A program made the translations under genes and the position numbers. Below the pieces are notes generated by a model that was not told the origin of the DNA, made no database searches, and saw only the letters and a list, made by a program, of their open reading frames with translations. Of a DNA stretch of 10,968 bases, positions 1,113 through 10,968 are shown in pieces (position 1 is the first letter of the stretch; each line of letters begins with the position of its first letter). The stretch comes from Spirochaetaceae bacterium (lineage in GTDB: Bacteria; Spirochaetota; Spirochaetia; B11-G9): assembly GCA_030633365.1 (NCBI GenBank), contig DAOVSY010000067.1, forward strand, positions 1 to 10,968, given 5' to 3'.

Positions 1113-2207
1113 CTAAAACTTATCGTAAAAAATTTCCTCTGGTTTTAAACCCTTTTCACCCAGAACTTCTGTTACTGCATCAATCATAGGTGGAGGTCCA
1201 CATAAAAAGGCCTGGCTCTTTTTATTTGATTCCAGAACTTTATCCACAGCTAGATGTACAAAACCATACTCACCATCCCACTCTTCGTCTTCTCCAACAG
1301 GATCAGAGAGTGCATAAATTATCTTAAGGTTTGGATATTTCTTAGCATATTCCTTAAAATAATCAAGATAGAATACATCTTGTAATGAACGGCATCCAAA
1401 AAACAGATAACATGTTCTGTTTTCCCATTTTGAATATATATAGTGAACGATATTGGTTATTGGAGCCATACCGGCACCTCCACCAACACAAACTATATCT
1501 GTTTCTTCATCCTGTGAAAGTTCAAACTCTCCATAAGGTCCTGTAAACATTATACTATCCCCGACCTCAAGACCATGGATATATGTTGATGCAATACCTC
1601 CAGGAATAAGACGTACAACTACCTGGGCTATATTTTTTTCATATGCCGGAGAACTTATAGAATATGCCCTAAAAACAGGTCCATCAGGGCCAGGTGCCTG
1701 AATCTGAATATACTGCCCAGGTTCCTGTTCAATTTCTACAGGTTCAATAAGGTTGAAAGTTACCTCTTTAATATCATGAGTAAGGGATATTGTTGAAGCA
1801 ACAGTTGCGTTATATTCTTTAACACTAAGTAATGCTTCAGGAATTTCTATATTAACATCTTCCTTTACTTTTACCTGACAGGCAAGACGTGTACCTGATT
1901 TTATCTCTGCTCTGGTCATAAATCCGGTTTCTGTTGGAAGTACCGGACCACCGCCGGAAACTACTTCTACCTTACAAAACCCGCATGTTCCTTTTCCTCC
2001 ACATGCTGAAGGAATAAAAACCTTATTATCTATCAAGGCAGAAAGGAGAGAAACTCCTCCCTTCTGTTCCAAAACTGATGCACCATTGTTTATGGTAATT
2101 ACACAATCACCATAATCTGCCAAATACTTTTCCGCTACCAGCAAAATTGCTGAAAGGAGGATAAAGATTGATGTTGTTACTCCGACGGCTAATAAACCTG
2201 ATACCAT
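1113..2207 (-). CDS. nqrF: Na+-translocating NADH:quinone reductase subunit F (compact form)
   Basis: NADH-oxidising entry subunit of Na+-NQR; it passes electrons from NADH through FAD and a 2Fe-2S cluster to the membrane subunits. An N-terminal membrane helix (about 5-25) is followed by a 2Fe-2S domain with C69, C75, C78 and C110, the Cx5CxxC...C spacing of the family. Next come an FAD-binding R-A-Y-S motif (180-183), an NADH-binding G-G-G-A-G-M-A-P (242-249) and C-G-P-P (336-339). At 364 aa it is about 40 residues shorter than Vibrio NqrF (about 408). The missing part is the insert between Y-I-Q-I and R-A-Y-S in the FAD domain, here only about 10 residues. The ATG at 2207 has an AAGGAG Shine-Dalgarno 5 nt upstream. 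It is the last gene of the operon, separated from nqrE by a 56-nt gap that holds a structured repeat. Confidence 0.95.
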   Translation of the reverse strand: MVSGLLAVGVTTSIFILLSAILLVAEKYLADYGDCVITINNGASVLEQKGGVSLLSALIDNKVFIPSACGGKGTCGFCKVEVVSGGGPVLPTETGFMTRAEIKSGTRLACQVKVKEDVNIEIPEALLSVKEYNATVASTISLTHDIKEVTFNLIEPVEIEQEPGQYIQIQAPGPDGPVFRAYSISSPAYEKNIAQVVVRLIPGGIASTYIHGLEVGDSIMFTGPYGEFELSQDEETDIVCVGGGAGMAPITNIVHYIYSKWENRTCYLFFGCRSLQDVFYLDYFKEYAKKYPNLKIIYALSDPVGEDEEWDGEYGFVHLAVDKVLESNKKSQAFLCGPPPMIDAVTEVLGEKGLKPEEIFYDKF

Positions 2208-2223
2208 AATTTCTCCTTAGGAC

Positions 2224-2257
2224 GCATTGCCGAGCAGGGACGAAGTCCCGACCAGGC
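2224..2257 (-). repeat. Structured intergenic repeat, copy 1 (nqrE-nqrF gap)
   Basis: A 34-nt element matching the one at 8759-8793. The flanks are identical (GCATTGCCGAGCAGG and CCGACCAGGC on the plus strand), while the stem-loop between them differs but still pairs: GGGAC (2237-2241) with GTCCC (2245-2249). The outer GCC (2229-2231) pairs with GGC (2255-2257). In the mRNA (minus-strand) sense the side segments UGGUC and UGCUC can add G-U, G-C and U-G pairs, which the plus-strand sense cannot. It sits between the nqrE stop codon and the nqrF Shine-Dalgarno. It may be a regulatory or stabilising mRNA hairpin, or a dispersed REP-like repeat. Confidence 0.8.
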
Positions 2258-2263
2258 CCTTAA

Positions 2264-2851
2264 CTACATGCTGATCATGCCGGAAAATCCCATGAAGGAC
2301 ATGGCAAGAACTCCAGTCACAAGCATGAGAACAGCTGTTCCCTTTAACGGCTTAGGAACATTCGAATAACCCATTTTTTCTCTGAGTCCGGCCATTAGCA
2401 CAATTGCCAGTGTCCACCCCAATCCGCCGCCAAGGCCAAAAGCTGTTGACTGTAAAAAATTGTAGTTTCTTAGAACCATAAAAAGGCTTACACCCAGAAT
2501 TGCACAATTTACAGTTATTAGCGGTAAAAAAATACCAAGAGCATAGTAGAGACCGGGACTAAACCGTTCAACAAACATCTCAACAAACTGTACAAAAGCA
2601 GCAATTATAGCAATGAATATAATATAGGATAGAAACTCAAGACCCATAGGTATCAGAATATAATGATAAATTAGGTAATTAATAGCGGTTGTTGATACCA
2701 TAACAAAGGTTACAGCAACACCAAGGCCTAGTGCAGTATCAATTTTATTTGATATAACCAAAAATGAACACATTCCCAAAAAACTGGCAAAGATCATATT
2801 ATTTGTAAAAATTGATCCTATAAAAATAACTAAAAGGGAAGTACTACTCAT
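2264..2851 (-). CDS. nqrE: Na+-translocating NADH:quinone reductase subunit E
   Basis: Integral membrane subunit of Na+-NQR, homologous to NqrD and to RnfA. It has six likely membrane helices, with NqrE signatures such as L-G-M-C-S-F-L near the N-terminus, A-L-G-I-F-L-P-L-I-T-V-N-C-A-I in the middle and G-L-R-E-K-M-G-Y-S near the C-terminus. The two conserved cysteines (C28 and C116 from this start) are the residues that, with NqrD, hold the intramembrane Fe-S cluster in the characterised enzyme. Three successive ATG codons end at 2857, 2854 and 2851. The third is chosen because the AAGGAG Shine-Dalgarno lies 7 nt upstream of it but only 1 and 4 nt from the others. This gives 195 aa, the normal family length, and an 8-nt overlap with nqrD. 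Confidence 0.95.
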   Translation of the reverse strand: MSSTSLLVIFIGSIFTNNMIFASFLGMCSFLVISNKIDTALGLGVAVTFVMVSTTAINYLIYHYILIPMGLEFLSYIIFIAIIAAFVQFVEMFVERFSPGLYYALGIFLPLITVNCAILGVSLFMVLRNYNFLQSTAFGLGGGLGWTLAIVLMAGLREKMGYSNVPKPLKGTAVLMLVTGVLAMSFMGFSGMISM

Positions 2852-3494
2852 CATCATTCTCCTTAGTCTTAATTAACGAATTCAGAAACCACATAAGAAA
2901 ACCTGCTGCAAAAAAAGCTCCAGGAGCAAGTACAAACAGAAGGTTTTTAGTATAGCCCAATTTCATAAGGTCTAATATCTGAACCCCAAAAATTACGAGT
3001 GCTCCGGATCCAATAGTTTCACGAATAAGAGCAATAAGAACAAGAATTATGGTGTATCCTACTCCGTTTGCGATTCCATCAAATATAGATACCAGAGGCG
3101 GATTCTGAATAGCAAAAGCTTCGGCTCTACCCATAACAATACAGTTGGTAATTATAAGACCAACATAGGGGCCAAGCTGTTTTGACATATCCCAGTAGTA
3201 CGCTTTTAGAAACTGATCAAAAACAATAACAAATGTTGCAATTATAGCAACCTCAGCAACCATCCTGATTCGCCTTGGGATTGTCTTTCTTAATACAGAA
3301 ACTATCAGGTTCGTAAGTGTAATTACAAATATTAATGCTACACCCATTACAATGGCGTTATCTACCTTATTAGTAACTGCAAGAGCAGAACAAATTCCCA
3401 AAACCTGTGCAGTAACTGGATTTATTCTGTATATACCATCTTTGAAAATTTCACCATACTTTGGTTTTTGTCCAGGTATTGAAATATTACTCAT
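2844..3494 (-). CDS. nqrD: Na+-translocating NADH:quinone reductase subunit D
   Basis: Membrane subunit of Na+-NQR, paired with NqrE in an inverted-topology arrangement in the known complex and related to RnfE. Family signatures are I-N-P-V-T-A-Q-V-L-G-I-C-S-A-L-A-V and L-I-I-T-N-C-I-V-M-G-R-A-E-A-F-A, carrying the conserved Fe-S-ligand cysteines (C35 and C118 from this start). About six hydrophobic helices are visible. The frame can also start at a GTG two codons upstream (3500), but an AAGGAG lies 5 nt before the ATG at 3494 while the GTG overlaps that Shine-Dalgarno, so the ATG is preferred (216 aa). It overlaps the end of nqrC by 8 nt, suggesting translational coupling. The C-terminus ends in a short acidic tail. 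Confidence 0.95.
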   Translation of the reverse strand: MSNISIPGQKPKYGEIFKDGIYRINPVTAQVLGICSALAVTNKVDNAIVMGVALIFVITLTNLIVSVLRKTIPRRIRMVAEVAIIATFVIVFDQFLKAYYWDMSKQLGPYVGLIITNCIVMGRAEAFAIQNPPLVSIFDGIANGVGYTIILVLIALIRETIGSGALVIFGVQILDLMKLGYTKNLLFVLAPGAFFAAGFLMWFLNSLIKTKENDDE

Positions 3495-8147: not shown

Positions 8148-8204
8148 TCATTTTAAGCTTTTTAAATAGTATATATACTTAACATTTCAAATTTTCGCTG
8201 CAGG

Positions 8205-8242
8205 CAGGAACCCAGTGTGCAATTAAGTATACTGGGTTCCTG
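8205..8242 (-). terminator. 12-bp perfect hairpin after the SQR-dsrC-dsrE operon
   Basis: CAGGAACCCAGT (8205-8216) pairs perfectly with ACTGGGTTCCTG (8231-8242) around a 14-nt loop, starting 22 nt after the stop codon of the DsrE-like gene. Neither strand shows a T-run after it, so it is not a textbook intrinsic terminator. It could act as a 3' stabiliser, a weak terminator, or a boundary before arsR. Confidence 0.55.
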
Positions 8243-8264
8243 GGAATATAGAACCAATCTTTGT

Positions 8265-8741
8265 TTAAGTGAAGATAATCTCTGCACCTGCTGAAAGTTC
8301 ATAAAATTCACCTACAGTAAGCACCTTTTCAACCTGAGGACAAAAATCATCCATAGTTAAGCCAAACATATCTACAGTAGCTTTACATGCATATAATTTA
8401 CCACCTGCATCATGAATCATTTCTATGAATTCTGGAATAGGTGGAATATCAAGCTTGTCCATAGTTTTCATCATCATCGATGTGGCCATTGCAGACATTC
8501 CTGGAATCGCTCCAAGCCATGTAGGCATCCCCATACCGGGGTTTCCAACAGTAGCAATTTTTATTTTGCCCATTTTTTTCTTTGTAATTGCATCCATTCC
8601 AAAGAATGTAAAGAAAATAGATACTTCTATTCCTTCCATCCTGGCCCCGTTGGCCATTATAAGAGAAGGATAAATCCCGTCTAATGATCCCTTTGAACAT
8701 ACCAGGGATATTTTTTTAATAGAATCTTTTGTTTCTGCCAT
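8265..8741 (-). CDS. DsrE/DsrF-like (DsrE2-type) sulfurtransferase
   Basis: Small sulfur-relay protein of the DsrE superfamily, 158 aa, expected to carry a persulfide on a conserved cysteine and hand it to a DsrC/TusE or TusA partner. The family pattern is visible: an N-terminal strand I-S-L-V-C-S-K-G-S-L-D, then F-F-T-F-F-G-M-D-A-I, a Gly/Met-rich middle (about 66-95, many methionines), and G-G-K-L-Y-A-C-K-A-T-V-D-M-F-G-L, with C119 the likely active residue. C15 and C134 are further cysteines. The Met-rich hydrophobic middle is typical of DsrE2 proteins, some of which are membrane associated. The ATG at 8741 has an AGGAG Shine-Dalgarno 6 nt upstream. Last gene of the operon, preceded by a structured repeat in the gap from the dsrC-like gene. 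Exact partner and direction of sulfur flow are inferred. Confidence 0.85.
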   Translation of the reverse strand: MAETKDSIKKISLVCSKGSLDGIYPSLIMANGARMEGIEVSIFFTFFGMDAITKKKMGKIKIATVGNPGMGMPTWLGAIPGMSAMATSMMMKTMDKLDIPPIPEFIEMIHDAGGKLYACKATVDMFGLTMDDFCPQVEKVLTVGEFYELSAGAEIIFT

Positions 8742-8758
8742 AATTAACTCCTATGGTT

Positions 8759-8793
8759 GCATTGCCGAGCAGGAAGCTTGCTTCCGACCAGGC
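8759..8793 (-). repeat. Structured intergenic repeat, copy 2 (dsrC-dsrE gap)
   Basis: Second copy of the element at 2224-2257, in the same orientation relative to the operon. Its stem is GGAAG (8772-8776) with CTTCC (8781-8785), so two of five base pairs differ from copy 1 while pairing is kept; outer GCC (8764-8766) pairs with GGC (8791-8793). In both copies the mRNA continues into a similar tail: GGCAATGC, two variable bases, CC, two A/T bases, then AGGAG, the ribosome binding site of the next gene. It separates the dsrC-like stop codon from the DsrE-like start. Confidence 0.8.
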
Positions 8794-8804
8794 TTAGATT
8801 GCTG

Positions 8805-9122
8805 TTATACACAGCTTGCAGGTTTTTTGAGCCCTGCTATTTTTGATGATTTCTTAAGAGGTCCTCCTGGATAAAGAGCATAGAGTTCCTTTGTAGGCAC
8901 ACCACCTGCTTTCGTCATACGTCTAAGTGAGGGCATAGTTCCTTTTTCCTCATAATCTTTCTGTAAAAAATCAATAACCTTCCAGTGCCCATCCATAAGT
9001 TCTCCGATTCCTTCCTCCACAGCAATAGCAGAGGCAATCTCCCTGTTCCATTCAGAAGGATCAGTCATATATCCTTCATCGTTTACCTGTACCGTTTTAC
9101 CGGCAATTTCTTTTTGTGCCAT
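8805..9122 (-). CDS. DsrC/TusE-family sulfur carrier lacking the second cysteine
   Basis: Small cytoplasmic sulfur-carrier protein of the DsrC/TusE/RspA family, 105 aa. Family features: D-E-G-Y-M-T-D-P-S-E-W-N near the N-terminus, an acidic helical middle, then P-S-L-R-R-M-T-K-A-G-G and the flexible C-terminal arm S-K-I-A-G-L-K-K-P-A-S-C-V. The penultimate C104 is the sulfur-binding cysteine. Canonical DsrC has a second cysteine 11 residues earlier (G-A-C-K-I-A-G); here that position is S93. It therefore cannot form the intramolecular disulfide or bridge a DsrC trisulfide, and more likely works as a TusE-like single-cysteine carrier. No dsrAB or tusBCD genes are in the window. The ATG at 9122 has GAGGAG 8 nt upstream, 19 nt after the SQR gene. 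Confidence 0.88.
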   Translation of the reverse strand: MAQKEIAGKTVQVNDEGYMTDPSEWNREIASAIAVEEGIGELMDGHWKVIDFLQKDYEEKGTMPSLRRMTKAGGVPTKELYALYPGGPLKKSSKIAGLKKPASCV

Positions 9123-10756: not shown

Positions 10757-10968
10757 ATGAAAAAATTAGTGCTGACAATATTAACACTTTGTTTCTCATT
10801 TCAAATATTTGCTGCAGGCAGCTCAGAGTCCAAATCAGATAGAACTCAGCTTACAGTTGCATTTCTACCTATAATAGATGCTCTTCCTCTTTATATTGCT
10901 GAATCTCAGGGATATTTTGCGGATGAGGGACTCCAGATTAAAGCTCTTTCTGTAGATAATCCCATTGA
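10757..10968 (+). CDS. ABC transporter substrate-binding protein, SsuA/NMT1-like (partial)
   Basis: Only the first 70 codons lie in the window; the frame is open to the right edge. An N-terminal signal peptide (two lysines, then a hydrophobic core to about residue 18) ends in I-F-A-A-G-S-S-E-S, a cleavage region typical of spirochaete periplasmic binding proteins. The mature part begins T-V-A-F-L-P-I-I-D-A-L-P-L-Y-I-A-E-S-Q-G-Y-F-A-D-E-G-L, the characteristic start of the NMT1/THI5/SsuA-like fold used for sulfonates, nitrate, thiamine precursors and similar small solutes. C12 lies in a lipobox-like L-T-L-C but so close to the N-terminus that lipoprotein processing there is doubtful. An AAGGAA ribosome binding site precedes the ATG by 7 nt. 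The ligand cannot be named; a sulfur compound would fit the neighbourhood, but that is a guess. Confidence 0.85.
   Translation, partial: MKKLVLTILTLCFSFQIFAAGSSESKSDRTQLTVAFLPIIDALPLYIAESQGYFADEGLQIKALSVDNPI

Follow-up and report, generated by a model that had tools for sequence, protein, structure and literature searches.

What are two small hairpins with common arms doing at two gene junctions of one stretch of DNA, each standing between a stop codon and the Shine-Dalgarno (SD) site of the next gene? The stretch analysed here (the window, 10,968 nt) holds two copies of the repeat element under study, which we label E. Both lie on the minus strand, one at the nqrE-nqrF junction and the other at the dsrC-dsrE junction, among the following features.

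1113..2207, minus strand: nqrF (Fer2, FAD_binding_6, NAD_binding_1), downstream gene of copy 1
2213..2217, minus strand: AGGAG of nqrF, after the copy 1 tail and TA
2220..2228, minus strand: conserved 3' tail of copy 1, AATGCGTCC
2229..2257, minus strand: copy 1 hairpin, GCC-type arms, inner stem GGGAC/GTCCC, between the nqrE stop and the nqrF SD
2258..2262, minus strand: TAAGG left of copy 1, matching the TAAGG right of the tail (2215-2219)
2264..2857, minus strand: nqrE, Rnf-Nqr subunit (PF02508), upstream gene of copy 1, stop at 2264-2266
8265..8741, minus strand: dsrE-like gene (PF13686), downstream gene of copy 2
8748..8752, minus strand: AGGAG of dsrE, after the copy 2 tail and AT
8755..8763, minus strand: conserved 3' tail of copy 2, AATGCAACC
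8764..8793, minus strand: copy 2 hairpin, GCC-type arms, inner stem GGAAG/CTTCC, between the dsrC stop and the dsrE SD
8794..8805, minus strand: ACAGCAATCTAA, extra 12 nt that are not in the empty site of genome G001
8805..9122, minus strand: dsrC-like gene (PF04358), upstream of copy 2, C-terminal SCV and stop kept, stop at 8805-8807

Structure of the window copies

The arms of the window copies (GCCTGGTCG and CTGCTCGGC) have the 7-mer CTGSTCG in common; downstream of the hairpin come the tail AATGCRWCC, two further bases and then the next gene's AGGAG. The first-pass annotation had described two hairpins with common arms and differing inner stems that both pair, in the same orientation, close behind an upstream stop and with a tail that runs to the next gene's AGGAG. 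Indeed, both are exact matches on the minus strand, both fold (-16.4 kcal/mol for copy 1 and -14.8 kcal/mol for copy 2; z -3.1 and -2.0), and the coordinates agree, with upstream stops at 2264-2266 and 8805-8807. It was also correct that the mRNA-sense strand pairs better, the plus strand of the same hairpins being weaker at -12.7 kcal/mol (copy 1) and -11.1 kcal/mol (copy 2). That the two are unrelated terminator-like hairpins, alike by chance, has next to no probability: all that speaks for it is that both are intergenic hairpins, whereas the arm pattern GSCTGGTCG/CTGCTCGSC has two exact matches in the window and none in 200 shuffles, hundreds of copies with the same arms were found in other genomes, and no T-run follows the window hairpins.

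The TAAGG pair around copy 1 is a possible target duplication, and ACAGCAATCTAA beside copy 2 resembles a leftover E tail (GCAACCTAA). A regulatory effect of E on nqrF or dsrE is possible. The nqrE-nqrF junction had been taken for the sole gapped junction of the nqr genes; this stands by ORF coordinates, the others overlapping, but G001, which has no hairpin there, is also short-gapped at this point. Among the database matches of the window DsrE protein, metagenomic sequences come closest, and the top one assigned to a named organism is from a Spirochaetaceae bacterium (88%). Rfam gave no family above the gathering score for the whole window, and for 2150-2350 only a weak match (E-value 0.92) at 2151-2203, outside the hairpin.

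Copies in near and distant genomes

A search for further copies, as the first-pass annotation had proposed, found hundreds of them. The six uncultured spirochaete genomes G001-G006 (the near genomes) hold 107, 94, 44, 42, 47 and 60 copies with both arm variants counted (394 in total), against no match in any of the six for a reversed-pattern control; copies were found by arm patterns. Among 394 genomes (G001 and its relatives), at least one match was present in 69 and at least five in 20. Single matches per genome may be due to chance, because the reversed control gave four matches altogether across the same 394 genomes. Distant genomes can be rich in copies (110 in G116, 29 in G054), and G018 and G043, the nearest by NqrE match after G001-G003, have none.

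In a scan of a species-genome collection 74 stretches matched, 29 of them with spirochaete titles. Six of the 45 stretches without such titles were inspected; four had no evident stem and two, both from Dethiosulfatibacter, had one. Two pattern matches were found in viral contigs; by eye, the inner stem is paired in neither of them. An nqrF scan confirmed nothing.

Covariation and the conserved core

The first-pass annotation held that structure is kept while sequence changes. For the inner stem this is borne out by many stems, although not at every pair. In the near genomes (38 distinct inner stems), Watson-Crick pairing was found 32 times at pair 1, 26 times at pair 2 and 37 times at pair 4 (shuffle means 10.4, 12.9 and 14.6), but pair 3 shows no excess (25/38, shuffle mean 25.6). 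Among 25 distinct stems of the distant genomes, pairs 1-4 are Watson-Crick in 24, 24, 22 and 23 (shuffle means 7.5, 12.9, 11.7 and 6.6). The outer pairs vary as well. In 192 copies, the first is G-C in 178, C-G in eight and T-A in three, and the second is G-C in 94 and C-G in 88; the third is A-T, G-C or T-A in 123 of 202 copies (about 60%). DNA loop types such as GNA and CTTG may hint at single-stranded DNA.

The core CTGGTC...TGCTCG is another matter. It is almost invariant, including two mismatches and two G.T wobbles: at least 189 of the 192 copies share the consensus base at each of the 12 positions L3-L8 and R2-R7, with a search that by design detects only copies with up to two changes per arm and so no strongly decayed ones. 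The constancy of the core, mismatches included, looks like recognition of a given hairpin rather than pairing alone. Dead mobile DNA would need a recent spread to leave the core intact in nearly all copies, and purifying selection on single copies is possible.

Food for thought are also the inner stems at like junctions. One junction has a compensatory pair, AAAGC..GCTTT in G001 (L201) and GAAGC..GCTTC in G003 and G006 (L341, L082). In 23 of 29 comparisons between species in which both sites are filled, the two inner stems are not the same, and the loops often differ in length too; self-matches were removed from this set, and some of its pairs are not strictly at the same position. Either such sites have been refilled or the stem has been exchanged, and simple insertion followed by decay leaves these differences at apparently the same junction unexplained.

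Position relative to Shine-Dalgarno sites

Context was scored in regions of G001 and G003 chosen by arm pattern alone, which cover 88 of the 107 exact-arm copies of G001 (without its last contigs) and 42 of the 44 of G003; two and three edge arrays, respectively, were left out. The shares in G002 (27/44) and G004 (4/5) were set aside, their regions having been picked partly via SD-located queries. Of 104 testable arrays, 48 stand in sense before an SD and a start codon (37/72 in G001, 11/32 in G003), seven of them with a second palindrome, hairpin B, between E and the SD. Only two arrays stand antisense before an SD, one in each genome, and control offsets gave 3/281 (G001) and 1/120 (G003). 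The spacing is tight: with a search range of 22 nt, the right arm lies 9-11 nt from the SD core in all 33 direct arrays of G001, and 10 nt from it in 26.

In G001, 25 of the 31 AGGAG motifs borne by E belong to a start codon, compared with 92 of 283 other intergenic AGGAG motifs (ORFs of at least 100 aa, crude gene calls), and sense SD sites are therefore over-represented beyond the motif itself. Any intergenic AGG is at a called start in 349 of 3483 cases. A native extended SD motif without a hairpin was rejected as the general cause, because GCANCC before an SD mostly comes after E (31 after E, three after hairpin B, seven otherwise). Hairpin-less tails occur singly (L155; L362 of G002).

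Placement thus follows gene orientation only in part. The sense bias (48 against two antisense) is far from random and agrees with the link to operon translation drawn by the first-pass annotation, but the remaining arrays (35/72 in G001 and 21/32 in G003) lie elsewhere. By crude gene calling, 34 of 88 G001 copies fall inside ORFs of at least 60 aa and 23 of 88 inside ORFs of at least 100 aa; the 23 include copies at the 3' terminus of the preceding gene and copies in doubtful ORFs. In the distant genomes, where at most four loci per genome were taken, some overlapping (29 distinct copies), the tendency is weak: 3 of 26 non-edge arrays stand before an SD, and two of these are one array seen twice.

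E could alternatively be a cis-acting RNA element 5' of the ribosome binding site, serving mRNA stability, translation or an RNA-binding protein, that selection has maintained and spread, with mobility being secondary. The sense orientation, the fixed SD spacing, the excess of E-borne AGGAG at start codons, the almost invariant core and the compensatory pair at one junction all suit such a role. On the other hand, large parts of the arrays are not in sense before an SD (the G001 and G003 shares above, and 23/26 in distant genomes), RNA folding of the SD with and without E gave inconsistent accessibility, no Rfam family matches, and related species lack E at the same genes. Copies also lie in palindromes, in other E copies, before a tRNA gene and inside a gene (see below). 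We consider this explanation unlikely.

Empty, filled and nested sites

The dsrC-dsrE junction of G001, whose dsrE is 96% identical to that of the window, is intact without the hairpin (GTATAGGAG / AGCTGTGTATAGGAG / AGCTGTGTATAGGAGTTAATTATGG), and its stop TAG lies inside the SD. In the window the junction reads AGCTGTGTATA-[12 nt]-E-ATAGGAG with flanks as in G001; the stop of dsrC is now TAA, so that the C-terminal SCV of DsrC and the SD both survive. Further sites are just as cleanly filled in one genome and empty in another: L185 7201 against G002; L167 4851 against G002, G003 and G006; L172 and L191 against G003; and L404 against G002. Some of the 31 comparisons scored as empty concern sites that hold other insertions or remnants, and at some sites only the tail is present. 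At nqrE-nqrF, G002 likewise carries a copy, with the window's inner stem; there is none in G001, G018, G043 or G047, and the G003 contig breaks off just after the nqrE stop.

Copies are also found in places other than SD sites. E lies inside other palindromes, such as GTAGGGACA[E]AGGTCGCGACCTGTCCCTAC, inside hairpin B and inside other E copies; the E copy that stands alone in G001 (L172) contains a second E in G004 (L097). In six palindrome contexts examined by eye, GG targets go with GGC-type copies and GC targets with GCC-type copies, whereas SD sites have both types. This match of target and arm type hints at pairing between arm and target, but it is only a lead. The direct repeats that bound E are irregular and span just 0-5 nt. 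In G001 (L202 5574-5647) and in the distant G114 (L241 1416-1489), the E tail directly abuts the start of a tRNA gene; by eye we had read this gene as tRNA-Ile, but ARAGORN calls it tRNA-Met with anticodon CAT. Finally, a small gene for a glycine-rich protein carries E as an in-frame stretch of 14 codons in G001 (L166, minus strand from 185) and G003 (L352, plus strand from 1931); the insertion is absent from G002.

Because relatives have empty sites, and because copies lie in palindromes, in each other, before a tRNA gene and within a gene, we infer that E is probably a non-coding mobile palindromic repeat, inserted 5' of GG, in the near genomes mostly that of an SD. The element, of about 40 nt, consists of two covarying outer pairs, a near-invariant core, a free inner stem and the tail NATGCRWCC followed by 1-3 nt. 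The insertion point of a new copy would be directly 5' of GG, which in the near genomes is usually part of the GGAG of an SD, following the rule ..A|GGAG -> ..A[E]NNAGGAG; the hairpin would then lie upstream and the tail next to the SD, with both the SD and the stop of the preceding gene kept. Points that speak against this reading are the lack of a linked mover in the regions searched (see below), the irregular end repeats, the intact core, the differing inner stems at like junctions and the weak SD habit in distant genomes. A trans-acting enzyme might recognise the core of the sense-strand hairpin, since only the sense strand can form the G.T pairs. Insertions at SD sites might persist because they are harmless or mildly useful.

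More tentatively, and with greater odds of being wrong than right, E might be a mobile hairpin aimed at the ribosome binding site, facing downstream before GGAG and parting stop codon from SD with harm to neither, at sites that are entered again to form arrays, and with an inner stem that is exchanged under a constant mismatched core, using machinery other than Y1. If so, E would be an exchangeable cassette of translation-initiation regions in one spirochaete group.

Search for a mover

What could move E? The classical answer would be a RAYT (Y1) transposase, with E as a REP or REPIN. E resembles the REPs described in PMC3733652 in its size, its imperfect hairpin, its many copies and its tendency to lie between genes, and Y1 genes are present in G001-G006. 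Against this, E has no GTAG or CGTC end tag, and the E pair was found at none of 34 Y1 loci, searched about 1.5 kb to each side where the contig allowed. Moreover, among the 12 near genomes searched, Y1 genes are also present in G018 and G043, which have no copies, and five of eight distant copy-bearing genomes (G116, G054, G084, G114 and G223), which may be incomplete, have no Y1 match. With copies lacking at Y1 loci, Y1 occurring without copies and copies without Y1, we rejected Y1/RAYT as the mover, and a classical REP/REPIN is very improbable. The first-pass annotation had named a mobile REP-like repeat as one option: mobility is supported by copy number, filled and empty sites and tandem or nested copies, but membership of the named REP families is contradicted by the missing tag and the Y1 tests.

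A long version with the arms set apart was not found in 612 kb of G001. The ORFs neighbouring E (1380 ORFs in 133 regions of three genomes) form 111 families of at least two members; three of the 111 recur at least three times in one genome, and none of these is transposase-like by eye.

Comparison with known repeats

GTAG-tagged REPs and REPINs are similar to E in being imperfect hairpins of 20-40 bp with many dispersed copies, mostly intergenic and presumed mobile. They differ in their tag, as no GTAG is found in the flanks of 88 G001 copies, and in their link to Y1 transposases, which E lacks. In the two genomes that PMC3733652 diagrams, the REPs are close to the 3' end of the preceding ORF, with a varying distance to the downstream ORF, and REPs are described there as mainly downstream of coding regions; in the near genomes E is instead often set against the SD of the downstream gene. 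The same source presents CGTC-tagged REPs (including dRS3, RPE-4 and RPE-6) as having no dedicated transposase and as reported also from Spirochaetes (PMC3733652). E is likewise a small palindrome without a dedicated transposase, but the flank table shows neither a CGTC tag nor a CCA tail, and E has fixed stem mismatches and a free inner stem.

Rickettsia palindromic elements, of about 150 bp and frequent in genes according to PMC10969869, are palindromic too and can be in frame within a protein gene; E has only about 40 nt, and one in-frame case was checked (G001 L166/G003 L352). E shares with MITEs its short, non-autonomous nature and its presence or absence between related genomes, but no parent element was found in the 612 kb of G001 or among the recurrent ORFs of the 133 regions, and the end repeats are irregular, with 0-5 nt. 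The hairpins of integron attC sites and of IS200-type elements have conserved mismatched arms and a free terminal stem, and one strand folds better. E is like them in its mismatched arms, free stem and strand bias, but neither GTT/AAC boxes nor gene cassettes were noticed, and E does not need a Y1 gene.

No description of E was found in the literature searched. E is an untagged and probably mobile palindrome of spirochaetes, with a strong habit of standing before the SD in one group of genomes. A repeat that settles before start signals without breaking them would give selfish DNA a direct route to rewrite many 5' untranslated regions at once, and a hairpin repeat with neither tag nor RAYT would point to a mover not yet described. 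Both questions can be tested, given that some spirochaete genomes carry copies and others do not.

Minor observations

Hairpin B forms a palindrome family of its own (GAGTCGTACC, a variable stem and GAACGATCTC / GAGGAACGATCTC; for example L159 5939-5977 and L313). It often follows E, and the GCAACC tail is common to both. There are 5-21 copies in each near genome, two in the distant G084 and none in the other 10 of 17 genomes searched.

At three loci of G054 (L236, L244 and L252) the E copies are identical and their flanks nearly so, and a possible frame started by GTG follows; this is perhaps an insertion sequence with E in its leader. The E-like hairpins of Dethiosulfatibacter, which is no spirochaete (L025 1310-1346 and L063 1134-1170), have a paired inner stem and flanks that are alike. 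In the window itself, 8183-8207 and 10797-10821 form a 25-nt direct repeat of 92% identity (CATTTCAAATTTTCGCTGCAGGCAG), with one copy intergenic and the other near the start of the ORF at 10757. Downstream of dsrE, a palindrome seen by eye at 8204-8243 (AGGAACCCAGT..ACTGGGTTCCT) is perhaps a terminator.
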